Below are positions 5,028-21,657 of a stretch of 23,905 nt of DNA, in pieces. The notes beneath the pieces were generated by a model. It searched no databases. It was not told where the DNA came from and saw only the letters and a list, made by a program, of their open reading frames with translations. The stretch's first letter is position 1. The number at the start of each line of letters is the position of its first letter. The position numbers were made by a program, and so were the translations under genes. The DNA comes from a virus, in the IMG/VR virus record IMGVR_UViG_3300042868_003755, positions 1-23,905 of that record. The stretch is one strand, 5' to 3'.

Positions 5028-5234
5028 TTATTTCTTTCCAATCTTTGATACTACGTTAGCCTTGCTCAAGTGCAGTTGGTACAGGAACCTACGGTACACT
5101 CGCAATGAGGCAATGCTCATTGGATCTGTCTCGCCTTCGAGTTCGGCAATCTTTGCTTCTAACTCTTTTTCTTTTGCGCGGTGACGCTCGATGTCTGCAT
5201 TGCGCCCTTTTGTTTTGTTCCAAAAGAATTTCAT
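5028..5234 (-). CDS. 68-residue basic helical protein
   Basis: A small, very basic and charged protein (starts MKFFWNKTKGRNADIERHR). Residues 17-38 form a heptad-like charged helix (AKEKELEAKIAELEGE), and the C-terminal half is also helical with several Arg and Lys. The ATG at 5234 is chosen because AGGAG lies 6 bases before it; an upstream ATG-frame extension would start within the promoter at 5268-5297. This is the first gene after that promoter, and the RNA ligase follows one base after its stop, so the two are likely co-expressed. Function unknown. Confidence 0.75.
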   Translation of the reverse strand: MKFFWNKTKGRNADIERHRAKEKELEAKIAELEGETDPMSIASLRVYRRFLYQLHLSKANVVSKIGKK

Positions 5235-5267
5235 AACGTTCTCCTGTTGTTTTCTGTCTATGTGTGT

Positions 5268-5297
5268 ATTATAACACCGTTTCGGTAAAGTAGTCAA
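5268..5297 (-). promoter_or_regulatory. sigma70-type promoter P1
   Basis: On the minus strand, TTGACT (5292-5297), an 18-base spacer and TATAAT (5268-5273) form a near-consensus sigma70 promoter. The spacer contains ACCG-AAA-CGGT, an inverted half-site pair also present in P2 and P3. Transcription would start near 5261 and reach the ATG at 5234 through a leader of about 27 bases containing the AGGAG site. The promoter overlaps the 3' end of the upstream gene. Confidence 0.8.
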
Positions 5298-5520
5298 CCG
5301 AAATCAACACACCATTCACAGGCACTTGTTTACGCTTCTCTACACTGTAGAACTCCAGACCTGTATAGTGCTTCCAAAAGTCACCGCAGCCAAAGTAGGC
5401 ACGTTCGCTACCACAGATGGCTACTGCAAAGAAAAAGTGGTCGTCCCAGTACTGGCGACTGTTATTGCGGATGCTCTCGTACTTACGCATGACTTCTGGA
5501 TGTGCAGTGTATTTGAACAT
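5269..5520 (-). CDS. 83-residue hypothetical protein
   Basis: A small soluble protein rich in aromatic residues (RQYWDDHFFFAVAICGSERA, then FGCGDFWKHYTG). No known domain is recognised. Two close cysteines, in AICGSERAYFGCG, could bind metal but no full motif is apparent. The ATG at 5520 has AAAGG about 8 bases upstream. Its last codons overlap the P1 promoter, and its stop TAA lies inside the -10 box. It is the last gene of the transcription unit that begins at P2. Function unknown. Confidence 0.7.
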   Translation of the reverse strand: MFKYTAHPEVMRKYESIRNNSRQYWDDHFFFAVAICGSERAYFGCGDFWKHYTGLEFYSVEKRKQVPVNGVLISVDYFTETVL

Positions 5521-5540
5521 TATTCTGCCTTTGTTATTGC

Positions 5541-5909
5541 TTACAGGCCCAACAGTTCGCGTTCTTCCTCAGTCAACTTGGCCAGTGCGGCTGCACGAAC
5601 TGCGGCTTGGGCACGGGCGTGAGCACGATCCATTTCCAACTCCTCCAAGGTGCGCTCCAGTGCTTCTAGTGCCCATTGACTGGTATCAGTGTGCGTCATA
5701 GTCAGTGTGAAGGGAGTGTCACGTGGACGATCACGATCCAGCAGCACGAACCGGCTGTTCCGAACTGTAAGTTCAAAGTTGTTCTTCTGTGTGGCTTCTT
5801 CCAGTGCTGCCATCACGCGGCTTGGGTATGCTGCAAAGTCTTGTGCCTCTTGCAGTGCCCGTGCTTCTTGGCGCTCTGCTTCTTGTTCTGCTTTTGTCTT
5901 ACGTGCCAT
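5541..5909 (-). CDS. 122-residue helical phage protein
   Basis: A charged, alanine-rich protein with a basic N-terminus (MARKTKAEQEAERQEARALQ) that forms a long helix, a short central beta-like segment (FELTVRNSRFVLLDRDRPRD, about residues 45-64) and a C-terminal helical region ending AKLTEEERELLGL. The ATG at 5909 is preferred over TTG 5921; GGGG precedes it and the upstream gene stops at 5912. It is the second gene after promoter P2. No family is recognised. A nucleic-acid or protein-binding role would fit the composition but is not shown. Confidence 0.75.
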   Translation of the reverse strand: MARKTKAEQEAERQEARALQEAQDFAAYPSRVMAALEEATQKNNFELTVRNSRFVLLDRDRPRDTPFTLTMTHTDTSQWALEALERTLEELEMDRAHARAQAAVRAAALAKLTEEERELLGL

Positions 5910-5911
5910 TG

Positions 5912-6145
5912 TTAACCCCAATCTTTTTTGTCACCAAACTGTTCATTGTCGTTGAAGCCTGCGGTGTAGGCTGTGATCTCAGCGGCAGTCATGTTCTCCA
6001 TTTCCACACGAGGTGTGGTGCTTGTGGCACCTTCAAAGTAGTGCGGATTGAATCCACGGCTGTAGTAGCTGTCGGCACTGCCGCGATCATAAGCACCACC
6101 GTGACGTGTATCATATTGTGAAGTGCGGGTGTCTGTTGCAAACAT
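5912..6145 (-). CDS. conserved phage protein (DRGSADSYY...GDKKDWG family)
   Basis: A 77-residue protein with a pattern I recall from many tailed phages and some bacteria: TRHGGAYDRGSADSYYSRGF near the start, PHYFEGATS in the middle and a C-terminal tail FNDNEQFGDKKDWG. The function of the family is unknown. The motif content (YDRGSADSYY, aromatic and polar) looks like a small binding domain and has no enzyme signature. It is the first gene of the P2 unit: AAAGGAC lies 6 bases before the ATG at 6145, with a leader of about 27 bases. Confidence 0.8.
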   Translation of the reverse strand: MFATDTRTSQYDTRHGGAYDRGSADSYYSRGFNPHYFEGATSTTPRVEMENMTAAEITAYTAGFNDNEQFGDKKDWG

Positions 6146-6178
6146 TTTGCGTCCTTTAGTGTTGCTGCGTATGTATGT

Positions 6179-6207
6179 ATTATAACCGATTTGTCAATTC
6201 CGGTCAA
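6179..6207 (-). promoter_or_regulatory. sigma70-type promoter P2
   Basis: Minus-strand TTGACC (6202-6207), a 17-base spacer and a perfect TATAAT (6179-6184). It shares about 27 of 31 bases with P3, including AAATCGGTTATAATA, and has the half-sites ACCG-N12-CGGT across the spacer, with CGGT touching the -10 box. The -35 box overlaps the stop codon of the GIY-YIG gene. It would drive the genes at 5912-6145, 5541-5909 and 5269-5520. Confidence 0.85.
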
Positions 6208-6548
6208 CCGTTTTGCTTCACACGCACATCAGTGTTCAGTGCAGGTGTGTACTGAGCAATCAGCTCGCGTTCCAGTTTGTGTGCAGCATCTTTGCCACGC
6301 ACAATATCCACAATCACAGCATTGATGCTTTCAACACCTGCAATACGAATTGCTTCGTACAGGCGCCAAGATTTGTCCTCAGTGCGCGAGCGATAAATGT
6401 GCTTGTTAACACGGCTACGCAGGCTCATTGGGATTGTGCGCTGTGTTTTTGCAGTGATCCCAATGTAAAACTCAGTACCAATGTGCAGTGCGTACACAAT
6501 GTGAGTGCGATCAACACGCTTTTTACGAGGGGTTTTTGTTGCTTCCAT
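6204..6548 (-). CDS. GIY-YIG family protein, probable endonuclease
   Basis: A 114-residue single-domain protein. VYALHIG...FYIGIT (residues 18-32) matches the two-strand GIY-YIG core, with VYA in place of GIY. Downstream are the conserved Arg (R44 or R46 in LRSRVNKH), a Glu in LERELIAQY (E93/E95) and an Asn (N105), in the order expected of the family. Members cut DNA as homing or free-standing endonucleases or as repair nucleases. There is no extra DNA-binding domain apart from a basic N-terminus (TPRKKRV). Its ATG lies only 6 bases after the -10 box of P3, with no Shine-Dalgarno, so its mRNA is probably leaderless. Confidence 0.8.
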
Positions 6549-6554
6549 ACGTAT

Positions 6555-6583
6555 ATTATAACCGATTTAGCGATTTCGGTCAA
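6555..6583 (-). promoter_or_regulatory. sigma70-type promoter P3
   Basis: Minus-strand TTGACC (6578-6583), 17-base spacer, TATAAT (6555-6560). ACCG-N12-CGGT half-sites lie in the same positions as in P2. The first transcribed base should fall at about 6548-6549, that is, on or next to the ATG of the GIY-YIG gene at 6548, implying a leaderless transcript. Confidence 0.85.
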
Positions 6584-6585
6584 CC

Positions 6586-6609
6586 AAAAAGTTGTGGCTT
6601 TTTTACAAC
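6586..6609 (-). terminator. weak intrinsic terminator-like hairpin
   Basis: On the minus strand GTTGT and ACAAC (6605-6609 and 6591-6595) can pair around a 9-base loop and are followed by TTTTT. An alternative AAAAAG/CTTTTT pairing overlaps it. It lies between the stop at 6635 and promoter P3, where a terminator would be expected, but the stem is short and GC-poor. Confidence 0.3.
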
Positions 6610-6634
6610 AAAATGTGGGGTTTTTGCAACACTT

Positions 6635-11672: not shown

Positions 11673-12773
11673 TTAAAACAAGTCAACTTTTTCCCACGGC
11701 AAATGGGCTTTACCAAAATGTCCGTAGTTTGTGGTATCACTGTAGATTGGGCGGAACAACTCAAAGCGGTCAATGATGCCCTTGGGTGTTAAGTCCACTA
11801 TGGTCGGAACATGCAAAGTTAGATGCCTTGCCAGGGCTCGATCCTCACATTCCACATAGAAACTCATGGGCTGTGCTAGTCCAATGGCATAACTGATTTG
11901 CACAGTAGCCCAGTTGGCTTTGCCACTGGCCACAATGTTCTTGGCAATGTAACGCATCATGTATGCAGCACTGCGGTCAACTTTGGTAGGGTCTTTCCCC
12001 GAAAAAGCACCACCACCATGTGGGCTGTATCCACCGTATGTATCCACAATAATCTTGCGACCTGTTAGTCCAGTATCACCATCAGGACCACCAATTACAA
12101 AACGTCCTGTTGGGTTGATGTAAAATTCTGTTTTGTCATCTACCAATGTTACTGGCAATGTACCTCTGATCAATAATTCAATTGTGGCGCGAACTGTTTC
12201 AATGCCAACTTCTTCACTGTGCTGTGTGCTACAAACAACTTTGGCAACACGCTTGGGTTTGCCTGCTGAGTCGTATTCAAATGTTACTTGACTTTTTGCA
12301 TCTGGACCGAGCCAAGTAAAAATTCCTTGTTTTCTTGCATCAGTTAAGTGTTGCAAGATTTTGTGACTCCAGTAGATAGCACTGGGCATGAGAGTATCAG
12401 TTTCGTTACAAGCATAGCCAAACATCAAGCCTTGATCACCTGCACCAAACGTATCAGTGCCTAGTGCAATATCTGCGCTTTGCCCATGCAACAGATTGGT
12501 AATCTCCACAGTACGCCAGTCAAAGCCTGATTGTTCGTATCCAATATTTTTAATTGTTTTACGAATTGCCGAATCAACTTCTTCTTCATGCAGGATACCT
12601 TTGTACTCACCTGCTACCACAACACGGTTAGTGGTGACCAGAGTTTCGCATGCACATCGCAATGCAGAATCCTCCTTGGCCATTACCAAGTCCAGCACAG
12701 CATCACTGATAGCATCTGCTACTTTGTCTGGATGCCCTTCAGACACACTTTCACTTGTAAATAGATAACTCAT
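11673..12773 (-). CDS. metK: S-adenosylmethionine synthetase
   Basis: A 366-residue MetK, clearly alignable to the bacterial enzyme from end to end: SESVSEGHPDKVADAISDAV at the N-terminus (ATP and methionine site), GAGDQGLMFGYA (central motif), TGRFVIGGPDGDTGLTGRK, and the P-loop-like GGGAFSGKDPTKVDRSAAY. It converts methionine and ATP to SAM. E. coli MetK is 384 residues; here the C-terminus stops soon after LPWEKVDLF, and internal loops are trimmed. The start ATG 12773 is preferred over TTG 12794 because AAGGAAAAA precedes it and family homology begins there. It probably supports QueE, the radical SAM protein and three methyltransferases in this window. Confidence 0.95.
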   Translation of the reverse strand: MSYLFTSESVSEGHPDKVADAISDAVLDLVMAKEDSALRCACETLVTTNRVVVAGEYKGILHEEEVDSAIRKTIKNIGYEQSGFDWRTVEITNLLHGQSADIALGTDTFGAGDQGLMFGYACNETDTLMPSAIYWSHKILQHLTDARKQGIFTWLGPDAKSQVTFEYDSAGKPKRVAKVVCSTQHSEEVGIETVRATIELLIRGTLPVTLVDDKTEFYINPTGRFVIGGPDGDTGLTGRKIIVDTYGGYSPHGGGAFSGKDPTKVDRSAAYMMRYIAKNIVASGKANWATVQISYAIGLAQPMSFYVECEDRALARHLTLHVPTIVDLTPKGIIDRFELFRPIYSDTTNYGHFGKAHLPWEKVDLF

Positions 12774-13012
12774 TTTTTCCTTTTTAAATTCCAAATCAAA
12801 AACTCAAACTTATCAACCCAATAAATTTCCTCTATTGGCTCTCCGGGACCATGTATCCATCTGATACCATGATAGGCCCGCTTGCCCCACAATGGAGCTC
12901 CGCTGATAAAGCATTTTCTCGGAAGCCAACAAAGTTTCAAATCCCATTGCTGTGCTCTATTCAATCCCCAATTTTCCGATAGCGGCGCTTGTGTTACTTC
13001 GTCCAAGGGCAT
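12770..13012 (-). CDS. 80-residue hypothetical protein
   Basis: A small Trp-rich protein (starts MPLDEVTQAPLSENWGL; then KLCWLPRKCFISG and WVDKFEFLIW near the end). No family is recognised. I chose the ATG at 13012 because GGGGA lies 6 bases upstream and it shares a base with the stop of QueE (TGATG); an in-frame ATG at 13024 is a possible alternative giving 84 residues. Its end overlaps the metK start by four bases. The close position between QueE and MetK may mean a linked role, but nothing in the sequence shows this. Confidence 0.65.
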   Translation of the reverse strand: MPLDEVTQAPLSENWGLNRAQQWDLKLCWLPRKCFISGAPLWGKRAYHGIRWIHGPGEPIEEIYWVDKFEFLIWNLKRKK

Positions 13013-13863
13013 CAAGTTCCCCATTCGTTCTTGAACAACGGAACCTGTAGTCGATCACTGTAGCGCCAGCCTTCGTTCATAGCTAGGATAGCTACATTCT
13101 TATTGTTTAGTGCATACACACTTTCGACCCCGCCGATGGGCATCAAATACACATGCCCTTTAAATCCGGCTGCACGATATTCTGCCACTGCACGTTGAGC
13201 GTCTGCAAAATCTTCTTTGGTAGAAATTACCAGTTTCAAGTATGTATGCCCAACGTCTTCGTATTGACACACAATCTCTGGACGTATAGCATCTGACCAC
13301 TTCTCACCCGAACACGGCAGTTTAGCACTTACACTAAATGTCAATGCTTCGCGACCACGAGTTTTGTTTCCTAATGTCCAGTTCAGCAGATACTTTCTAA
13401 ACTCAGTAGTAAGTTCTTGAGTACCATTGGTTTCAAATGTGATCTCTCGAAGTCCTGCCATCTTAGGATCATCTAACAAACTAGGATAAGCACGTTGCCA
13501 GCCTAACAATGGTTCACCACCTGTGATCACAAGATGTTCATCACGCCATTCTTTAAACGGCAACATTGTCACAATGTCCTCTACGAGTTCAGTATTTTTA
13601 CGTACAGGACTTAGGTCTTTGAATCGTGGATCCCATGACGCATAGCTGTCACACCCTGTGCTTACTAAAGGCAAGTCATTGTATTTGCGGAATTGTACAG
13701 GATCAATAAACTCAGCTTCCGTACTTAATTCACCACGTGGCATACCAAATCCTGCACAGCGGAAATTACAGCCGAAAGTTCTAAGGAACACACTGGGGAC
13801 CCCCATATATCTGCCTTCACCTTGAACACTGTAAAACAGTTCTGCTACTTTAAGTTTACTCAT
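13012..13863 (-). CDS. queE: QueE-like 7-carboxy-7-deazaguanine synthase (radical SAM)
   Basis: A 283-residue radical SAM enzyme that contracts 6-carboxytetrahydropterin to 7-carboxy-7-deazaguanine. Family marks are ELFYSVQGEGRYMGVPSVFL (residues 8-27), RTFGCNFRC, ITGGEPLL (SAM contact GGEP) and FETNGTQ. The cluster cysteines are unusual: C32 and C36 follow the CxxxC spacing but the third, C71 in STGCDSYASWD, comes 34 residues later, so an insertion splits the motif. Downstream DSYASW matches the QueE tail of the motif. Its ATG overlaps the methyltransferase stop by ATGA. FolE and QueD in the same window supply its substrate. Confidence 0.88.
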   Translation of the reverse strand: MSKLKVAELFYSVQGEGRYMGVPSVFLRTFGCNFRCAGFGMPRGELSTEAEFIDPVQFRKYNDLPLVSTGCDSYASWDPRFKDLSPVRKNTELVEDIVTMLPFKEWRDEHLVITGGEPLLGWQRAYPSLLDDPKMAGLREITFETNGTQELTTEFRKYLLNWTLGNKTRGREALTFSVSAKLPCSGEKWSDAIRPEIVCQYEDVGHTYLKLVISTKEDFADAQRAVAEYRAAGFKGHVYLMPIGGVESVYALNNKNVAILAMNEGWRYSDRLQVPLFKNEWGT

Positions 13864-14645
13864 ATTTTTTGTGCTTTAATTAACAAATGCCAACCTAGAT
13901 ATTCTTTAACTGCTGCTCGCATCTCTTCACTCATCACAGCAAACCAAGGCTCTAATTCGTACTCGCCTGCACGGTACTTAGATACATTATACATGAAATT
14001 ATGATCTTGTCTAATTCTCAGGACTCGAAACTTCTCTTCCAGCAGATCATAAATTTCCTCCTTACTGTAGGCCCTGGCATATGGACAACCCGATTGTGCT
14101 TCAAATTGATCCAGCCCTTTTTGGATCATGGCATATTTCCAAGAATTCTTTGCGTATACCAACATGCGGAATTCTCCGTTGGGCACTAGAGCAGCATGAA
14201 TGTTATCTAAACATGCAGTCATATCAGGATAGTGATGCAGTACACCACAACTGTAAACCAAATCAAATTTGCCCAGGCTTGCTACTGCTGCACTGTCTGC
14301 ACCGTCCATCACATGAAACTCGCCGGTTAGTCCAAACAGCTCGAATCGCTGTTGACTCATAGCCACAGATTCTGCTGAAAGATCAATACCCACATAGTCA
14401 GCACCGTGCCGTGCAAATTCCACAGCATCTGATCCAATGCCAGATCCTATTTCTAACACACGCTTGCCTCGCCACAAGTGAAAACTGGCAAAATCACGTA
14501 GGTGTGGTTCTACAAAGAATCTACGTTCGGTGACTTCATTCCAATATTGTTCTGTGCCTGGCTCGCTAAGGCTGTGTTTGACATTACAAGGTTGTGCATT
14601 CCAGTAATGTTTAATTTTGTCTATAAGTTCAGTTGTCAAGTTCAA
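13860..14645 (-). CDS. class I SAM-dependent methyltransferase
   Basis: A 261-residue Rossmann-fold methyltransferase with motif I VLEIGSGIGSD (residues 63-73), acidic motif II GADYVGIDLS (81-90), FHVMDGAD, and the motif IV-like region FDLVYSCGVLHHY, typical of the Methyltransf_11/25 group. The C-terminal 80 residues carry extra helices (YARAYSKEEIYDLLEEKFRV) that may bind the acceptor. The start is TTG at 14645, chosen because GGAG lies about 6 bases upstream; it overlaps the end of the GT-A gene. Acceptor is unknown; the position among sugar genes and directly before QueE suggests a sugar or a modified base. Confidence 0.8.
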   Translation of the reverse strand: MNLTTELIDKIKHYWNAQPCNVKHSLSEPGTEQYWNEVTERRFFVEPHLRDFASFHLWRGKRVLEIGSGIGSDAVEFARHGADYVGIDLSAESVAMSQQRFELFGLTGEFHVMDGADSAAVASLGKFDLVYSCGVLHHYPDMTACLDNIHAALVPNGEFRMLVYAKNSWKYAMIQKGLDQFEAQSGCPYARAYSKEEIYDLLEEKFRVLRIRQDHNFMYNVSKYRAGEYELEPWFAVMSEEMRAAVKEYLGWHLLIKAQKI

Positions 14646-15471
14646 TGCTACTCCATGATTTCATTAGACCTTTGGTGTCTAATTTCAACATCTTGTGCCA
14701 GATGTCAATTTTGTTTTCTATACCCAATTTAAAATGTTCAAGATCGTACCCTAACGGGCTGAGGTAGTTGGCAATTTGTATAGCCTCTTGCATGCGACGA
14801 GTGCGCCAGGTGTGATGGTTGAAATCTCTAGGATGAGTGGGATTGCCTTCTAGCATAGGACGATTCTTGAATACATCGTCGCCGTTCTTACCAGTGAGAT
14901 CAAATCGTTCATGTTCGATCATCACGGGTATGGTGATTACGATGTCCAACATCCAGCCAATCTGACTGGTCCATGCATCATTGATCTGGTGCGGTGATAT
15001 ATTGCCTGTGATCTCTACCCACTTGCGTGGCAGGATAGGAAATATAGCATATGGATGTTCATGATTGGTTTCTGCTCGTAGTAATGCAAAGCGGTCATTG
15101 TGTTCACGGATAACATCATCCCATCCTTGGGTGGTCATCACAGCATCATCGTTCCAGAAGAAAATCCACGAACCTGTGCTGTGATTTGCTAGCTCATTGA
15201 GATATTCATTAAGACGAAGATAGCCCAAGCGTTTGAATTGCATAGCACTATAGGTTACACCTTTTGAATCAAGATATGGTGCAATCACATCCACAAAGTA
15301 TTCTATAGTATCTGTGTCGTCGTTGTCGAATGCTATCAATACTTCAATGCGTTCAGGGTGGGTGGCAGTATCAATTAGTGTGTGCAAGCATTGATCCATT
15401 GGAATTGGTCTAGCACGTACTGGTAATAATACACTAATATCAATATTGGGATTTTGTTCAGGTAAACTCAT
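14629..15471 (-). CDS. GT-A-like glycosyltransferase, paralog 1
   Basis: A 280-residue protein starting with DISVLLPVRARP (residues 10-21), the usual first strand of GT2-type nucleotide-sugar binding, then IEVLIAFDNDDTDT and SWIFFWNDDAVMTTQGWD, where NDD is a candidate metal-binding DxD-type motif. The central part (YAIFPILPRKWVEITGNIS) and LEGNPTHPRDFNHH are shared with the protein at 17390-18217, showing the two are paralogs. The sugar donor is not readable. It overlaps the radical SAM gene by ATGA, so all four genes from 13860 to 18217 are likely one operon. Function as a glycosyltransferase is supported by fold motifs only. Confidence 0.75.
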   Translation of the reverse strand: MSLPEQNPNIDISVLLPVRARPIPMDQCLHTLIDTATHPERIEVLIAFDNDDTDTIEYFVDVIAPYLDSKGVTYSAMQFKRLGYLRLNEYLNELANHSTGSWIFFWNDDAVMTTQGWDDVIREHNDRFALLRAETNHEHPYAIFPILPRKWVEITGNISPHQINDAWTSQIGWMLDIVITIPVMIEHERFDLTGKNGDDVFKNRPMLEGNPTHPRDFNHHTWRTRRMQEAIQIANYLSPLGYDLEHFKLGIENKIDIWHKMLKLDTKGLMKSWSSIELDN

Positions 15472-17393
15472 TGTGTTATACGGGTAATGTTGGTTTTTCC
15501 AAAGTTGCGTTTTCTACCAAAGTACATGTTCTCTAAGAAACGATCCTCACTCATGGCAGGATCTTCAGCTGTGTCAAATTTATAAACAGTGCGATTATCT
15601 AATGCAGCATTGTCTTGAATATAACCAAGGAAGTCATAGTCAAATGTGTGTGTTTGTGGGAACGCAGGTAAATCTCTGTAGTCGATCACATAATTTCGTT
15701 GAAATTTCAACAGTTGATTCTTTACTGGCAAATCAATATTATAGTGTGTGTTCAAGAACTTGTCAAGAGAATCAAAAACATAGTTGATCATTTTATCTTT
15801 GACCATGTACAGTGTGGTTCTGTGCATGAGGTTCCACCCAAACACTTCGATGTTACCAATACGCGGATGATCAATACGTCCCTTGGTCATCCAGTTTTCA
15901 AAGTAACTGCGTGTTTCTGCAAATTGCAGTCGGAACCATGGATCTTTCTGTACCCATGCATACAAGTCTTCGTAGAACTTGCTGTAGTCAATGTTCTGAT
16001 GCTTGGCTAGATATCTGGCTATATATGTGCTTAACCCATTAATATGGAATGTTTGAATAAAACTGCTCCACACTAAGGTATCCAACATAGTATCTCGCGG
16101 TATGGTCTTGGTACTCACAACCACATCAATACTTTCGTTGAGATCCACATCGCCATAGCTACCGCTCATGTAATCATACACAGGAACAGATTCTAGCTTG
16201 TATAGACGTTTTTGCAAGAGATTCATTTCGGCATTTTCCAGCAGTTGACATTGTAGAATGTTGATACCACCATGATTGCCTGCTCGGAAGATTTTCCAAA
16301 ACGCTTCTTTCCAGGACTCTACGGTTTCTCCAGGCAGGCCCAGGATCAGCTCTGTGTACACAGGAATATTGTTTTTGTCGCACAATGCAAAGATTTCGTC
16401 AATTTTGTGTTGATCAAGATTGCGACGTTTGATATTCTCCAATACATCGTTGTCCATGCTCTGCACACTCACTGTAAGACCTTGCCCAAAGTTAGGCGAC
16501 TCATCAATCAGTTTCTTCACAATATCCACAACTTCGTTCTTTTGATTCTTGGCCCAGGTCATGGAAAAACTTTCCAGTTTACCCCATCTCTTTTGCACTT
16601 CAATCAGCTTGTCCACAATCATGTTATCACGTTCCACAAACATACCAAAGTTGGCATCAGTGATAGTGACAAATCCACAATGTTCTCCAATCCAGTCTAA
16701 CTCATCGTACACACGTTGTAGATCAAACTTCTTGACCTTGTTGTATGTAAGACTGCCCCAGTCGCAAAATGTACATTGATACGGGCATCCACGATTGGTT
16801 TCCAGTGTGGCGTTCCAGATCACTTCGGGACTTTCGGCCATCACACGATCAAATATACCTGTGAGATATGGGCTAGGCACTTCGTCTAGATCATTGATGC
16901 GTTTGGGATCTCCTGTATCTACCAGCCCTGCGGCAGTGTTAATCAACAGTCCCGGAATGTGTGTGTAGTCAGTATTGTAATCTTCAAGAATATGTCTAAA
17001 GGTCATTTCACCTTCCATCTTGATCACTAGATCCATAAACGGTTCTTTTTCAAACAGTTTGGGATCTTCAATAGCCGGCTCTGGGCCGCCAAACACTATC
17101 AAACAGTTGGGGTTGAGTGTTTTTACCAGCCGAGCCAACTTGTAATTGTATCTGTGATTCCATACATAAGTTGAAAATGCTACCACATCACTAGTGCTTA
17201 GTTTTAATGCCAGTTCCTCAATAGGCGCCCTACGCCATACCAAGTGGTCTACTTCCCATGCTGCGTTGACTTTTTGTGAAGCGAGTGCATAACTCAGTAT
17301 AACTCCTGCAGAGTACGGCAAGTAGTATGCATTAAACTCTTTAGGACCTTGTTGAAAGTTGGGTTGGACGAAGCTGATTTTCTTTTTTGTCAT
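15468..17393 (-). CDS. B12-binding-domain radical SAM protein
   Basis: A 641-residue protein. Residues 1-150 look like a cobalamin-binding Rossmann domain (ISFVQPNFQQGP, later CLIVFGGPEPAI) but lack the DxHxxG cobalt-ligand motif. The radical SAM cluster motif is C203-PYQ-C207-TF-C210, followed by VTITDANFGM, VQSMD and TELILGLPGET, in normal order. The last 250 residues are helical and not recognised. Such enzymes often methylate unreactive carbons or rearrange ring systems. It lies between two paralogous GT-A genes, each with a 4-base overlap, which suggests a modified sugar or peptide substrate; that is inference. Confidence 0.85.
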   Translation of the reverse strand: MTKKKISFVQPNFQQGPKEFNAYYLPYSAGVILSYALASQKVNAAWEVDHLVWRRAPIEELALKLSTSDVVAFSTYVWNHRYNYKLARLVKTLNPNCLIVFGGPEPAIEDPKLFEKEPFMDLVIKMEGEMTFRHILEDYNTDYTHIPGLLINTAAGLVDTGDPKRINDLDEVPSPYLTGIFDRVMAESPEVIWNATLETNRGCPYQCTFCDWGSLTYNKVKKFDLQRVYDELDWIGEHCGFVTITDANFGMFVERDNMIVDKLIEVQKRWGKLESFSMTWAKNQKNEVVDIVKKLIDESPNFGQGLTVSVQSMDNDVLENIKRRNLDQHKIDEIFALCDKNNIPVYTELILGLPGETVESWKEAFWKIFRAGNHGGINILQCQLLENAEMNLLQKRLYKLESVPVYDYMSGSYGDVDLNESIDVVVSTKTIPRDTMLDTLVWSSFIQTFHINGLSTYIARYLAKHQNIDYSKFYEDLYAWVQKDPWFRLQFAETRSYFENWMTKGRIDHPRIGNIEVFGWNLMHRTTLYMVKDKMINYVFDSLDKFLNTHYNIDLPVKNQLLKFQRNYVIDYRDLPAFPQTHTFDYDFLGYIQDNAALDNRTVYKFDTAEDPAMSEDRFLENMYFGRKRNFGKTNITRITQ

Positions 17394-18217
17394 GCGGTAT
17401 TTACTCGTCTAACCGTGGCATCAACTTGATTATTGGTATCGTTGGCCCGCATCTTGGCCCAGGGATCTTGACGCCCTTCCCACGCTTCAACAAAAAATGT
17501 TAAATCAAGTCCTTGACCCTGCATCCACGTGGCCAATTTAGCAGCATCGTCGGTGCGCAATTTGACCATGTCAGGGTGATTTAAATCGCCAGATTGACTG
17601 GGATCGCCTTCCATGATACGACGTTGTTGATACGTTGCATCGTTGTTGACTCCTGTGATGTCGTAACGATTGTGATCGCAATGCACATCAATACGTTCAA
17701 ATATATCCAGATAGTACGCCAGTTGACTCACATAAGCATCATTTGAACTGTGTTGACTGATGTGTCCTAGAATTTCAAACCATTGTCGTGGCAAGATAGG
17801 AAAGATGCTGTACGGATGATTGTTGTGCGTGTACACACTCAGCAATTTGAATTCACCTGTACGCTCGCGTATACGTGCATCCCATCCTGGTGTTTTCATC
17901 ACAGCATCATCATTCCAGAAGAACAACCAGGATCCTTGGCTGTGTTCAGCTAGCCCATTCACATACTTGTGCAAGTTATTGTATCCCTGAGGTTCGAACA
18001 CCAAAATCTTATGATTGATTTTGTTTTGTTCAATCCAAGGGCATACATTGGCCAGCATGTTCTCCATGCCTACCACATCATCATTGTCCACTCCGAACAG
18101 CACTTCAATTGAGGAGAAATCTTCAGCAAGATTACAAAGACTTTGGATGCTACTCATTAATGCTTCAGCACGGCCCCTAGTAGGCAGCAAAATACTAATA
18201 TCAATTCCGTTATTCAT
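17390..18217 (-). CDS. GT-A-like glycosyltransferase, paralog 2
   Basis: A 275-residue paralog of the 14629-15471 product. DISILLPTRGRAEAL (residues 5-19), then IEVLFGVDNDDVVG and SWLFFWNDDAVMKTPGWDA align with the same positions in paralog 1. YSIFPILPRQWFEILGHIS and RIMEGDPSQSGDLNHP are also shared. The N-terminal TRGR is typical of GT2-type sequences. Divergence between the two copies suggests different donors or acceptors. It is the first of the operon leading to the radical SAM gene; its ATG at 18217 has a poor ribosome site six bases after the stop of the small membrane protein gene, so it may depend on coupling. Confidence 0.75.
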   Translation of the reverse strand: MNNGIDISILLPTRGRAEALMSSIQSLCNLAEDFSSIEVLFGVDNDDVVGMENMLANVCPWIEQNKINHKILVFEPQGYNNLHKYVNGLAEHSQGSWLFFWNDDAVMKTPGWDARIRERTGEFKLLSVYTHNNHPYSIFPILPRQWFEILGHISQHSSNDAYVSQLAYYLDIFERIDVHCDHNRYDITGVNNDATYQQRRIMEGDPSQSGDLNHPDMVKLRTDDAAKLATWMQGQGLDLTFFVEAWEGRQDPWAKMRANDTNNQVDATVRRVNTA

Positions 18218-18223
18218 TTTAAT

Positions 18224-18397
18224 TTACCAATGATGTATGACCCCTGCTGCAATAAAACAGTTGGTCACAATGTAGCATAATACAATGCAAGTTCGAATAC
18301 AGGCAACACGATTTGCTTCTGCATCCGTGTTGCCTGATTTTTCGCCTAGTGCCTTGGCCCAAAGACGCCAGATTTTATTAAAACTCGTGGTCTTCAC
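18224..18397 (-). CDS. 57-residue membrane protein next to queD
   Basis: A small protein with an N-terminal basic helix (SFNKIWRLWAKALGEKSGN) and a C-terminal transmembrane segment (ACIRTCIVLCYIVTNCFIAA) ending GVIHHW. I recall similar small phage membrane proteins with LWAxALGEKxxxxxxEAxxV and a closing GVIRHW. I place the start at GTG 18397, with AAGG 5 bases upstream, inside the end of queD by 20 bases; the longer GTG start at 18436 would add residues that only read across queD. The gene contains the inverted repeat 18300-18336. Function unknown. Confidence 0.65.
   Translation of the reverse strand: MKTTSFNKIWRLWAKALGEKSGNTDAEANRVACIRTCIVLCYIVTNCFIAAGVIHHW
18300..18336. repeat. 11-bp perfect inverted repeat inside a coding region
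   Basis: CAGGCAACACG (18300-18310) and CGTGTTGCCTG (18326-18336) are exact complements around a 15-base loop. On the plus strand the second arm is followed by ATTTTT, giving a terminator-like layout pointing against all annotated genes; on the minus strand no U-run follows. It lies within the small membrane protein gene. Confidence 0.6.
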
Positions 18398-18854
18398 GAT
18401 GACCTTGTCGGCCTGCCATGTTTGAATCGGTCTCACGCACTTCTACTCTAGTACACCACACACGTTTGGCTTCTTCCGCACCGCAGTTGGGCAAGAAGAT
18501 TGTGTTAACGTATTCGTACAAGAAGTCAGCAAGACCTTCACATCCTGTTTTTTCCACTTCTGTGATCTTGGCCAGCTTTAGTCTGCCCAGTTCCAACAGG
18601 TGTTCACGCATGGGATCATCTTGTGCAACCAGCAAAGTGTGATCAAACCAATCTTCTAAAAGGCCTTTGAGTGGTTTTAATCCACCAAAGTCAGTAACCC
18701 AATTACGAGCATCCAAGGTATCTGCTTCAAATTCAAAGTGAAAGCTCATTGCGTAGCCGTGGATGAGATTGCAGTGACTATCAGCTCGCCATTGACGATA
18801 CGCTACAGGCCCAATTTGCTTGTATGTTTTTGTTGAAAAATATTTCTTTGCCAT
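18378..18854 (-). CDS. queD: QueD-like 6-carboxytetrahydropterin synthase
   Basis: A 158-residue member of the 6-pyruvoyltetrahydropterin synthase family, which makes 6-carboxytetrahydropterin from dihydroneopterin triphosphate. Marks: RADSHCNLIHGYAMSFHFEF (residues 23-42) with catalytic Cys28 four residues before His32, WVTDFGGLKPLKG, FDHTLL (D71, H72) and VEVRETDSN (E141). The usual zinc motif HGH reads HGY here, and the loop between the first zinc His and Cys28 is missing. It has its own promoter (18872-18900) and a strong AGGAG site 7 bases before ATG 18854. E. coli QueD is about 120 residues, so this one is extended at both ends. Confidence 0.87.
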   Translation of the reverse strand: MAKKYFSTKTYKQIGPVAYRQWRADSHCNLIHGYAMSFHFEFEADTLDARNWVTDFGGLKPLKGLLEDWFDHTLLVAQDDPMREHLLELGRLKLAKITEVEKTGCEGLADFLYEYVNTIFLPNCGAEEAKRVWCTRVEVRETDSNMAGRQGHREDHEF

Positions 18855-18871
18855 GATTTTCTCCTATGTTG

Positions 18872-18900
18872 ATTATAGCATAGGCAGCAGAATTTGTATA
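18872..18900 (-). promoter_or_regulatory. sigma70-type promoter, extended -10, for queD
   Basis: Minus-strand TATACA (18895-18900, 4 of 6 to the -35 consensus), 17-base spacer, and TGC-TATAAT with the -10 box at 18872-18877, an extended -10. Transcription should start near 18865, giving a leader of about 11-12 bases with the AGGAG of queD at its 5' end. It lacks the ACCG/CGGT half-sites of P1-P3. The region 18901-18932 upstream shows no clear terminator. Confidence 0.7.
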
Positions 18901-18932
18901 GCGGGTTGATGCTCGGAGGCCGCTGTGAATAT

Positions 18933-19337
18933 TTATTCCGGTAATTGATAGCCAGTGGCTTTATAGTCAGCTTGCCCAAATACAACTCCTCGCACACCAC
19001 CTGTAGGATTGGCAGTGTCGCCCATTCGACGTGGGATAAAATGCACATGCGGATACATCACTGTTTGACCAGCAGTAGGCCCCATATTGATACCAATGTT
19101 GAATGCCTCACAGTGGCCTTGTTCTACCATGCGACGTCCGTACAACATGGCTGACTCCATACAGTCAACGATCACTGCATCGGTATTGTAGTTGGGCACA
19201 AACAACAAGTGGCCCGAGGTCACAGGATAGCGATCTCGAAACACAGTGATATGAAAATCACTTAGTTCTTGTACCAGTTGATCCCACGGTGCTACACCGG
19301 CAGCAGTTGCTTCATCTAGTGTTTCGTAATCAATCAT
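18933..19337 (-). CDS. HIT-family protein
   Basis: A 134-residue histidine-triad protein. Signature: FRDRYPVTSGHLLFVPNYN (residues 33-51), EAFNIGINMGPTAGQTVMYP, then HVHFIPRR. The usual HxHxH triad appears as YPHVH, so the first His is Tyr but the catalytic middle His is kept. HIT proteins hydrolyse or transfer nucleotidyl groups, for example from dinucleotides or adenylylated nucleotides. The ATG overlaps the folE stop as ATGA, so the two are co-translated. Possible roles in clearing a nucleotide by-product or in sugar nucleotide handling; substrate unknown. Confidence 0.82.
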   Translation of the reverse strand: MIDYETLDEATAAGVAPWDQLVQELSDFHITVFRDRYPVTSGHLLFVPNYNTDAVIVDCMESAMLYGRRMVEQGHCEAFNIGINMGPTAGQTVMYPHVHFIPRRMGDTANPTGGVRGVVFGQADYKATGYQLPE

Positions 19338-20125
19338 CGTGGTGCAAATTCCTGTTGTAGTTTGATATTGTCAAAGAACTCTTTCTTTGTACTTTGATCA
19401 GTCTGGAATGCACCTTTGAGCACAGTGGTCTGTGTGAGACTTGAATGTGCCATAATGCCGCGATTTTCACAGCAACCATGCACTGCTTGAATGTATACTG
19501 CCACATCCTTGGCGTCAGTTGCTTTCATGATTTCTCGTGCAATGTCGTTGCACAGTTCTTCCTGTAATGTACCGCGACGGGCACACCACTGAGCAATGCG
19601 AGTGTACTTAGAAAGCCCAATAAGTTTGTTGGCGGCGATAATCCCAATGTAAGCGACCCCAGATACAGGCTGATGATGGTGACTACACATACTACGAAGC
19701 TCACTTCTAACCACCAGCATGCCTTCGTAACGGTCGTCTGAATCATTTGGAAATGCTGTTGCGTCCGGTGCCGGTTCATATCTACCTTCCATGATTTCAT
19801 TATAGTACATCTTGGCCAGTCGATGTGCTGTGCCTCGTGAGTTAGGATCATTCTCTCGATCAATCAGCAAAGTGTCTAACACTTGTTCAAATGCCACAGT
19901 TGCTTCGTTGATTAACTGTTCTTTATCGCTGTCAGCTAGGTAGTCACTGATATTGTCACCGGCCCAGAATCTTTTGCCATCTGTTCGCATACGGTCGCGA
20001 ATTGCTGTGCTTAGATATTTGCCTTGTGCTGCATCTTCTTTCTTGACATATAGTGTTTGTCCTTCAAGTGGAACAAATTTGTCTGATTGTGGATGGATGA
20101 TTGGATCTGGTTTAAATTCTGGCAT
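19334..20125 (-). CDS. folE: GTP cyclohydrolase I
   Basis: A 263-residue FolE, which opens GTP to 7,8-dihydroneopterin triphosphate, the first step to QueD. Zinc ligands are visible as C147 and H150 in SMCSHHHQP and C218 in AVHGCCENRG. IGLSKYTRIAQWCARRGTLQ (residues 169-188) and EELCNDIAREI are the usual active-site segments. E. coli FolE has 222 residues; the extra length is mostly an N-terminal extension of about 50 residues (KFVPLEGQTLYVKKEDAAQG) without a known domain. ATG 20125 has AAGGAA 6 bases upstream. Overlaps the HIT gene at its stop. Confidence 0.93.
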   Translation of the reverse strand: MPEFKPDPIIHPQSDKFVPLEGQTLYVKKEDAAQGKYLSTAIRDRMRTDGKRFWAGDNISDYLADSDKEQLINEATVAFEQVLDTLLIDRENDPNSRGTAHRLAKMYYNEIMEGRYEPAPDATAFPNDSDDRYEGMLVVRSELRSMCSHHHQPVSGVAYIGIIAANKLIGLSKYTRIAQWCARRGTLQEELCNDIAREIMKATDAKDVAVYIQAVHGCCENRGIMAHSSLTQTTVLKGAFQTDQSTKKEFFDNIKLQQEFAPR

Positions 20126-20126
20126 G

Positions 20127-20723
20127 TTATTCCTTAATGGTTATGTTTCGCAAATCTGGATACTGCACAAACTTAGGTTGTTCAGGAGCAGCTTGATACT
20201 GCGCCAATAACTCTAGTCCACGTTCAGCATCTTCAATTGCAGGCCTATAGTGATATCCCAACTGAAACGTTTTCTGTGTGTTCCAGGGTAAGATATTTAG
20301 GTCGCGACCATCATATCGTTGTTTTATCATCACTTCGTAGGCTTGCTTGTTATCTAATAGTATAGCACCACCGTGACCTATTTGTAAAGGCTTTGTATGT
20401 CCAAAACTCAAGCACTGCATTTGTCCGGTACGATACATGCCAGATTCCAACCGTCGAGCACTGTCCCAAACTCTAGTGTATATGAAATTGTACTCGCCGG
20501 CCCAGGTCTGTTCCGGCTCATCTAGATACACATAGTCAATGCCTAACTTATGCATGGTCATAGGCACACTCAAGTAAGTGTAAGGAGTCATCTTGAGACC
20601 CTTCACTAGTTCATATCTCAAACACATCTCTATGGCATGTGTACAGCAATCGGTCATGATTGCAGCAGGAGCGCCAGTGAACTTGGCTAATGCCCGTTCA
20701 AATTCAAGGATTTTTTCGAACAT
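20127..20723 (-). CDS. short DegT/DnrJ-type PLP aminotransferase homologue
   Basis: A 198-residue protein with pieces of the DegT/DnrJ/EryC1 sugar aminotransferase family: FTGAPAAIMTDCCTHAIEMC (cofactor-phosphate region, residues 15-34), PYTYLSVPMT, VWDSARRL (Asp87 position), and SFGHTKPLQIGHGGAILL with K111 in the Schiff-base position. Full-length members have about 370 residues; the C-terminal domain is missing, and parts of the core are shortened. It may be a compact enzyme, a partner of another subunit, or non-catalytic. The ATG overlaps the end of the epimerase gene by 20 bases and has a weak ribosome site. Stop is two bases before folE. Confidence 0.72.
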   Translation of the reverse strand: MFEKILEFERALAKFTGAPAAIMTDCCTHAIEMCLRYELVKGLKMTPYTYLSVPMTMHKLGIDYVYLDEPEQTWAGEYNFIYTRVWDSARRLESGMYRTGQMQCLSFGHTKPLQIGHGGAILLDNKQAYEVMIKQRYDGRDLNILPWNTQKTFQLGYHYRPAIEDAERGLELLAQYQAAPEQPKFVQYPDLRNITIKE

Positions 20724-21657
20724 ACCAAGCCCATGCGTGTTGAATCATATCTTCTAGTGCCCATTGACGCCAATTTGGCATCAACATACCAAACTTTGCT
20801 GCACTGGCAGTGAGCACAGCAGGATCACCTGCACGTCGAGGCTCTAGCAATACTGGCACCTTGCCTGCAATTGCAGCAGCGCATGCCAAGATTTCTTTTA
20901 CGCTGGTACCATTGTTTGTGCCTAGATTGTAAATGCCAGAGGGCACAGCAGCATCTAATGCACATACATGAGCATGTGCAATGTCTTCCACATGTACATA
21001 ATCACGTATACAAGTCCTGTCGGGTGTTTCGTAGTCATCACCATACAATGAAAACTGTTTGTTGTCACGAGTGGCTTCTAGGATTCTAGCAATCACATGA
21101 GTAGCACCTGGTTCTTGTCCATGTCGACCTAGACGATCTGCACCGCAAGCATTGAAGTAACGGAATGCTACATAGTCAAGATTGTACGCATGATGATAGC
21201 TGGCCAGCACTTGTTCAATCATGCGTTTGCTTTCACCGTAAGGACTCATAGGATCACATGGGTCAACTTCCGAACATGGATTCAGTATTGGCTCGCCATA
21301 TACAGATGCACTTGAACTAAAAATAAATTTAGTCTTGGGCAAGGCATTGACCACAAGTTCCAACAAGTGGATGGTCTTGATCACATTGTTGTGGTAGTAG
21401 TCGCCTGGATGTTTAACGCTGGGTCCTACCAAACTGGTACCAGCACAATGGATGATGGCGTCAGGTTGTAGCTGTATCAACTTTGTTTTGGCTTGATCAC
21501 TATCAAAGTCTGCTAGAACAAATTGATTAAAAACATCTTTCAATCGTGGCGGGCAAGGCCTACGGTCGATACCAATTACCCTATGCCCGGCATCAGACAA
21601 AGCCAATGCCACTTGCCCGCCAATGTATCCTGAGGCTCCAGTTACTACCACATCCAT
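20704..21657 (-). CDS. galE: UDP-glucose 4-epimerase-like SDR enzyme
   Basis: A 317-residue extended SDR. NAD-binding GASGYIGG (residues 7-14), DRR at 31-33, FIFSSSASVYG with Ser116 candidate, the catalytic Y140xxxK144 in SPYGESK, and FRYFNACGAD all match the GalE subgroup, which interconverts UDP-glucose and UDP-galactose (or the N-acetyl forms). RTCIRDYVHVEDIAHAH is the usual later motif. Length is slightly less than E. coli GalE (338). The ATG follows directly on the glycosyltransferase stop (TAAATG) with AAGGAAAA upstream. It probably supplies a sugar donor to one of the local glycosyltransferases; the exact substrate is not determined. Confidence 0.88.
   Translation of the reverse strand: MDVVVTGASGYIGGQVALALSDAGHRVIGIDRRPCPPRLKDVFNQFVLADFDSDQAKTKLIQLQPDAIIHCAGTSLVGPSVKHPGDYYHNNVIKTIHLLELVVNALPKTKFIFSSSASVYGEPILNPCSEVDPCDPMSPYGESKRMIEQVLASYHHAYNLDYVAFRYFNACGADRLGRHGQEPGATHVIARILEATRDNKQFSLYGDDYETPDRTCIRDYVHVEDIAHAHVCALDAAVPSGIYNLGTNNGTSVKEILACAAAIAGKVPVLLEPRRAGDPAVLTASAAKFGMLMPNWRQWALEDMIQHAWAWYVRKNP

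Follow-up and report, generated by a model that had tools for sequence, protein, structure and literature searches.

The window analysed here, which spans all 23,905 bases of one IMG/VR virus record and is probably a fragment, contains three promoters on its minus strand, termed P1, P2 and P3. P3 (6555–6585) is built from GG, TTGACC (6583–6578), a 17-nt spacer and TATAAT (6560–6555); P2 (6179–6209) from GG, TTGACC (6207–6202), a 17-nt spacer and TATAAT (6184–6179); and P1 (5268–5299) from GG, TTGACT (5297–5292), an 18-nt spacer and TATAAT (5273–5268). Scored with a position weight matrix (PWM) of the promoter family described below, P3 and P2 reach 41.7 and 44.6, respectively. The initial annotation had proposed three look-alike sigma70 promoters at these positions and its description was accurate: all three are near-consensus promoters on the minus strand, P1 reads TTGACT-N18-TATAAT, and P2 and P3 are identical at 27 of 31 positions from GGTTGACC through TATAAT. 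The ACCG and CGGT 4-mers to which it drew attention are also present, as ACCG-N12-CGGT in P2 and P3 and as ACCG-N3-CGGT in P1, and both are missing, as it had noted, from the queD promoter (TATACA-17-TATAAT, 18900–18872).

P1 and P2 are predicted to be leadered promoters. The predicted P2 leader (6146–6172, minus strand) spans 27 nt from +1 at 6172, contains the Shine-Dalgarno (SD) sequence AAAGGA (6157–6152) and precedes a minus-strand gene for a 77-residue protein of no assigned function (5912–6145), homologues of which occur at 26 related loci. The predicted P1 leader (5235–5261, minus strand) is likewise 27 nt long, from +1 at 5261, carries AGGAG (5245–5241) and precedes a 68-residue minus-strand frame (MKFFWNK..., 5028–5234), also with no assigned function. 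A stretch matching this gene was found downstream of site 56743 in the related contig G002, where the P1 orthologue has the same leader layout and a 17-nt instead of an 18-nt spacer. The P3 gene (6204–6548, minus strand) encodes a 114-residue GIY-YIG-like protein that matches phrog_5123, a homing endonuclease family with GIY-YIG motif (E 4.6e-6); Pfam GIY-YIG matches for this protein were below cut-off only. P2 and P1 each incorporate the stop codon of the frame upstream of them, the TGA falling within the −35 element of P2 (6204–6207) and the TAA within the −10 element of P1 (5268–5273).

The three promoters are far above chance expectation. TTGAC-N17/18-TATAAT occurs four times in the window against 0.047 expected from 300 first-order Markov shuffles, the GG-preceded form occurs three times against none in 300 such shuffles, and the only three occurrences of GGTTGAC in the window are those at P1, P2 and P3. 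The fourth site, a perfect TTGACA-17-TATAAT at 15766–15738 on the minus strand, lies within a radical-SAM/B12-binding coding sequence (15468–17393); it may follow from protein conservation, since contig G026 has a similar site (24578) where its sequence matches the window. The minus-strand cluster at 11673–20125 includes genes for SAM synthetase (11673–12794), a PTPS/QueD-like protein (18378–18854) and GTP cyclohydrolase I (19334–20125), together with a QueE-like frame recognised by eye (13012–13863, minus strand) that has no Pfam match; the cluster perhaps serves 7-deazaguanine synthesis and DNA modification. A short (198 aa) minus-strand DegT/DnrJ-type aminotransferase (20127–20723), which covers part of its family profile only, adjoins a GalE-like epimerase (20704–21657).

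A scan of viral contigs with GGTTGAC-N14-CGGTTATAAT returned at least 119 stretches, and several contigs among the matches listed had two to four copies each. When 26 of the contigs were searched again without the GG and CGGT constraints, TTGAC-N17-19-TATAAT was found in all 26, nearly always on one strand (e.g. 35:1, 23:0, 44:2), and a reversed-pattern control gave counts near zero. Thirteen related phage contigs (1.41 Mb) were taken whole and counted together with the window. This set contains 181 usable TTGAC-17-TATAAT sites with the 17-nt spacer on the gene strand versus two on the other; the family PWM, which permits imperfect hexamers, gives 200 versus 3 at scores of at least 16. The consensus over the 181 sites features GG at −38/−37 (72 and 74%), TTGAC followed by C (60%), an A/T-rich segment from −28 to −25, A/T-T at −18/−17, TATAAT followed by A (81%), and an initiator Y(−1)A(+1)T(+2) (T 54% plus C 35%, A 78%, T 81%). 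At the extended −10 (TGn), G(−14) is found in 67% and T(−15) in 54% of the family, with GG in P2 and P3 and TG in P1. The initiator A is located seven bases past the last T of the −10, which is the usual position of a transcription start. An UP element was looked for, and a mild A/T excess is seen immediately upstream of the GG. Leadered genes have an A-rich leader with AGGAG (median 24 nt, interquartile 22–25), a class into which the predicted P2 leader fits. By these features P1, P2 and P3 belong to a dispersed family of putative strong promoters, of which no description was found in the open-licence papers searched. A bacterial host as the source of the pattern was rejected; the 21 matches in bacterial genomes were all Bacillota-type, with spacers and downstream sequence unlike the family.

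Several related contigs encode a Gp23-type capsid protein, which in G007 shares 66% identity with its counterpart in Sinorhizobium phage Phosso, and the T4-superfamily DNA polymerase of G002 is 49% identical to the Phosso enzyme. These matches identify the related contigs as T4-superfamily jumbo-phage relatives. Neither marker was found in the 23,905-base window, whose nearest link among whole contigs is G002 (94% identity in the P3 protein). By RNA ligase the nearest isolate is Limnohabitans phage DC31 (55%), which was rejected as a carrier of the promoter family; the family is absent from it. Strand-biased TTGAC-17-TATAAT with other spacers is present in the isolates Munch, PA5oct, XbC2 and Serratia BF. 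In Salmonella phage Munch (MK268344.1, 8590–13708) the spacers of these strand-biased sites repeat AGTACT/GAGAGTACTT, so this isolated jumbo phage has another spacer motif, specific to its own lineage. As for the bacterial host, Bacteroidia ribosomes do not recognise the SD sequence according to one report (PMC9976891), and a Bacteroidota host would on that basis seem unlikely, because SD leaders are present here.

The initial annotation had read ACCG and CGGT as half-sites at a position where a repressor or phage regulator could block polymerase; in operator terms, a phage or host repressor would bind across the spacer. Both 4-mers do occur at all three window promoters, but their spacing varies between N12 and N3. 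P3 orthologues were fetched by protein similarity and not by promoter, because a collection pattern containing CGGT biases matches towards CGGT. The promoter is present in all 50 unique upstream regions obtained; ACCG is found in 10, CGGT in 7 and the pair in a single one, and CGGC, TTGC and ATGC are more frequent than CGGT. In G002 the orthologues of P1 and P3 read ACCA...CGAT and ACCG...CGGC and a P2-type promoter reads ACCA...CGGG; the pair was looked for in P1 and P2 orthologues and was absent. Across the 181 family sites, ACCA (71) outnumbers ACCG (21) at the first position and TTGC (35) outnumbers CGGT (30) at the second. The ACCG/CGGT pair is present at 8 of the 181 sites, a co-occurrence slightly above expectation by a test that ignores shared ancestry (Fisher p 0.01). 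One of eight variable mirrored pairs (5/20) showed raised mutual information over the 181 sites, but the other seven were at or below background. Since orthologues lack the pair and mirrored positions do not covary, a repressor operator was rejected; it is largely refuted by the orthologues, and we judge it highly improbable. The conserved elements, namely the −35, G(−14), the −10 and the start site, are those expected for polymerase recognition and not for a repressor dyad. CGGT is best read as one lineage form of the −16 to −13 segment (extended −10 region), in which only G(−14) is held, and the two 4-mers appear to be incidental lineage variants flanking the −35 and −10.

The spacer could also be read by a phage protein. 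Within single genomes it holds 4.5 to 11.5 bits of information, and relatives such as Munch have spacer sequences of their own, as might be expected if a MotA-like phage activator or RNA-polymerase-binding protein recognised the spacer (ARAAATGCC) and the sites were not simply host promoters. However, the −35 is intact here, whereas the MotA box replaces it at T4 middle promoters (PMC2988021). T4 early promoters have a consensus that extends beyond the sigma70 elements, and this additional consensus needs no phage factor (PMC2988021); moreover, leaderless promoters of two other gene families (UvdE and phrog_420, below) are near-consensus in their hexamers with unrelated spacers. Dependence on such a factor is therefore improbable, and part of the spacer conservation may stem from common descent of duplicated cassettes and not from recognition. 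The promoters resemble T4 early promoters (PMC2988021), with which they share near-consensus −35 and −10 elements, 16–18 nt spacing, many gene-strand copies and extra conserved positions; an extended −10 is partly kept, in the proportions given above for G(−14) and T(−15). Relatives in the set encode the Gp23-type capsid and T4-superfamily DNA polymerase. The family differs from T4 early promoters in its own consensus (GG-TTGACC, ARAAATGCC spacer), in a leaderless class and in an UP element that is weakly indicated.

The ATG of the P3 gene (6546–6548, minus strand) coincides with the predicted +1 (6548), at a distance of exactly 6 nt from TATAAT, and is thus a candidate leaderless start. The frame is closed by a stop 21 nt upstream, the interval contains no start codon, and the P3 start has no SD sequence. 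The 50 upstream regions of P3 orthologues (76–95% amino-acid identity), which are unique but not independent events, have the ATG 6 nt from the −10 in 48 cases and 5 nt in two, with an SD in none; the ATG is constant in all 50 while spacer and codons vary. The same pattern is seen in a wider set of orthologues whose identity falls as low as about 50%; the one exception, in contig G023, is leadered. The initial annotation was correct in describing three look-alike sigma70 promoters, was not supported in its reading of the half-sites, and overlooked the candidate leaderless start at P3. With +1 predicted from the position of the −10, the P3 mRNA would be leaderless; alternatively, transcription reading through from upstream could supply an RNA on which the gene is translated with no SD.

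The leaderless arrangement extends to other members of the family. An ATG exactly 6 nt after TATAAT is found at 37 of the 181 sites, whereas neighbouring offsets have 1.75 on average. A reading frame of at least 40 residues follows 29 of these 37 ATGs but only 3 of the 21 found at the neighbouring offsets (Fisher p 4e-6). Long frames at the 6-nt position are opened by ATG in 29 cases, by TTG in three and by GTG in none. At 5–7 nt there are 34 leaderless cases among the 181 sites, 27 of them without an SD-led alternative, which suggests that about one in five family promoters is leaderless in these freshwater phages; most remaining sites have a leader of ∼24 nt with AGGAG. In the isolates the ATG at 6 nt is seen at 3 of 65 sites, versus 37 of 181 in the contigs and window (Fisher p 0.003). 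Leaderless starts occur in 18 of 88 gene families, five families being leaderless in three or more phages and six having both kinds. They include a UvdE-type endonuclease (PF03851; phrog_8420 match from residue 7), a gamma-glutamyl cyclotransferase (phrog_2520 match from residue 1) and phrog_420. The full-length families phrog_8420, phrog_2520 and phrog_420 begin at these ATGs, which are thus likely natural protein starts.

As an independent replication, UvdE and phrog_420 orthologues were fetched by protein. A −10 at 5–7 nt without an SD was found in 25 of 69 and 35 of 64 unique upstream regions, respectively, and the distance was 6 nt in 46 of these 60. The remaining orthologues are SD-led or overlap the preceding gene, so that leaderless starts appear optional: in other phages, members of these gene families have an SD or are translationally coupled. 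Many leaderless UvdE and phrog_420 promoters combine near-consensus hexamers with unrelated spacers, indicating that the leaderless layout is independent of the spacer motif. Possible dual starts, in which an ATG at the predicted +1 is followed 24 nt later by a second in-frame start with AAAAAGGAG between, were observed at G001 98916, G016 195, G019 38109 and G023 11839.

The ATG at +1 of P3 might instead be a by-product of the conserved initiator AT (+1/+2), translation starting elsewhere or from a longer RNA. This AT is kept at leadered promoters too, so that an ATG requires just one more base, and 8 of the 37 ATGs at 6 nt open short frames only. Yet the other 29 open long frames, known domains begin right after the ATG, P3 has neither an in-frame upstream start nor an SD, and its orthologues hold the ATG in 50 of 50 upstream regions against a varying background. 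An accidental ATG is accordingly an unlikely explanation.

Ahead of P3 lies a weak terminator-like hairpin (GTTGTAAAAAAGCCACAACTTTTT, 6586–6610, minus strand), and many P3 orthologues have richer hairpins at the corresponding position; no strong upstream hairpin was found at P1 and P2. Stems of at least 6 bp directly upstream are present at 31 of 115 GG-promoters, versus 5 in shuffled sequence; a control interval gave 19. The promoter that follows the GIY-YIG gene drives different next genes in the window and in G002: in G002 it stands immediately ahead of a gene whose counterpart in the window comes second after P2. The promoter blocks appear to have been moved between genes. Mobile promoter/stem-loop cassettes of T4-type phages were reportedly described by Arbiol et al. 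in 2010 (cited in PMC4177764). The blocks seen here resemble such cassettes in their promoters and apparent movement, and to some extent in their upstream hairpins; they differ from them in that hairpins of at least 6 bp accompany only 31 of the 115 GG-promoters.

Taken together, P1, P2 and P3 probably represent a family of host-sigma70 promoters with leadered and leaderless outputs, in which the P3 mRNA is leaderless and the half-sites are incidental. Small regulatory blocks would carry family promoters, each placed ahead of one gene or a short operon. Host RNA polymerase, presumably early in infection, would read GG-TTGACC and TATAAT together with the semi-conserved spacer between them, in which G at −14 provides an extended −10. 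Transcription would begin seven bases past the −10, where an A is conserved. P1 and P2 would thereby yield a ∼27-nt leader with an SD site, and P3 an RNA that begins on the A of the ATG, giving a leaderless mRNA for the GIY-YIG-like protein on which the ribosome would bind the 5′-terminal AUG directly. In leaderless initiation the 70S ribosome is described as binding directly to a start codon that lies at the 5′ end or close to it (PMC9031893). Like the ORF-adjacent −10 elements of Deinococcus-Thermus (PMC12340547) and the lambda cI mRNA (PMC9031893), P3 has a −10 a few bases before the ATG, no predicted leader and no SD. Unlike those leaderless genes, the promoters described here are dispersed in phages and have a nearly perfect −35, and the same promoter family, even the same gene families, are also SD-led.

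A broader proposal, which we offer tentatively and regard as rather doubtful, is that freshwater T4-superfamily phages, a large and uncultured group, use one promoter family to run two parallel translation channels, one SD-led for most genes and one leaderless (∼1/5), set gene by gene by a few bases after +1, possibly exploiting or surviving a change in host ribosomes. Genes for bS21 were observed in 10 of 23 related contigs (G003, G005, G006, G008, G009, G011, G012, G014, G018 and G019), and five of the sequences look proteobacterial by eye (EFYEKPTxERKRKK...LPKKLF/Y); a link between these genes and unusual translation initiation is possible.

To our knowledge, most leaderless mRNAs reported from phages are isolated examples, lambda cI among them, and no description of a leaderless class in such phages was found in the open-licence papers searched. 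The sequences compared here suggest that, in an abundant group of phages, leaderless starts form a systematic class. One and the same gene can be leaderless in one phage while a second phage has it with an SD leader, and such genes would provide a natural series on when leaderless initiation is favoured. TATAAT-N6-ATG may serve as a transferable rule for start-codon correction in such genomes, and the family consensus would be usable for finding promoters in them.
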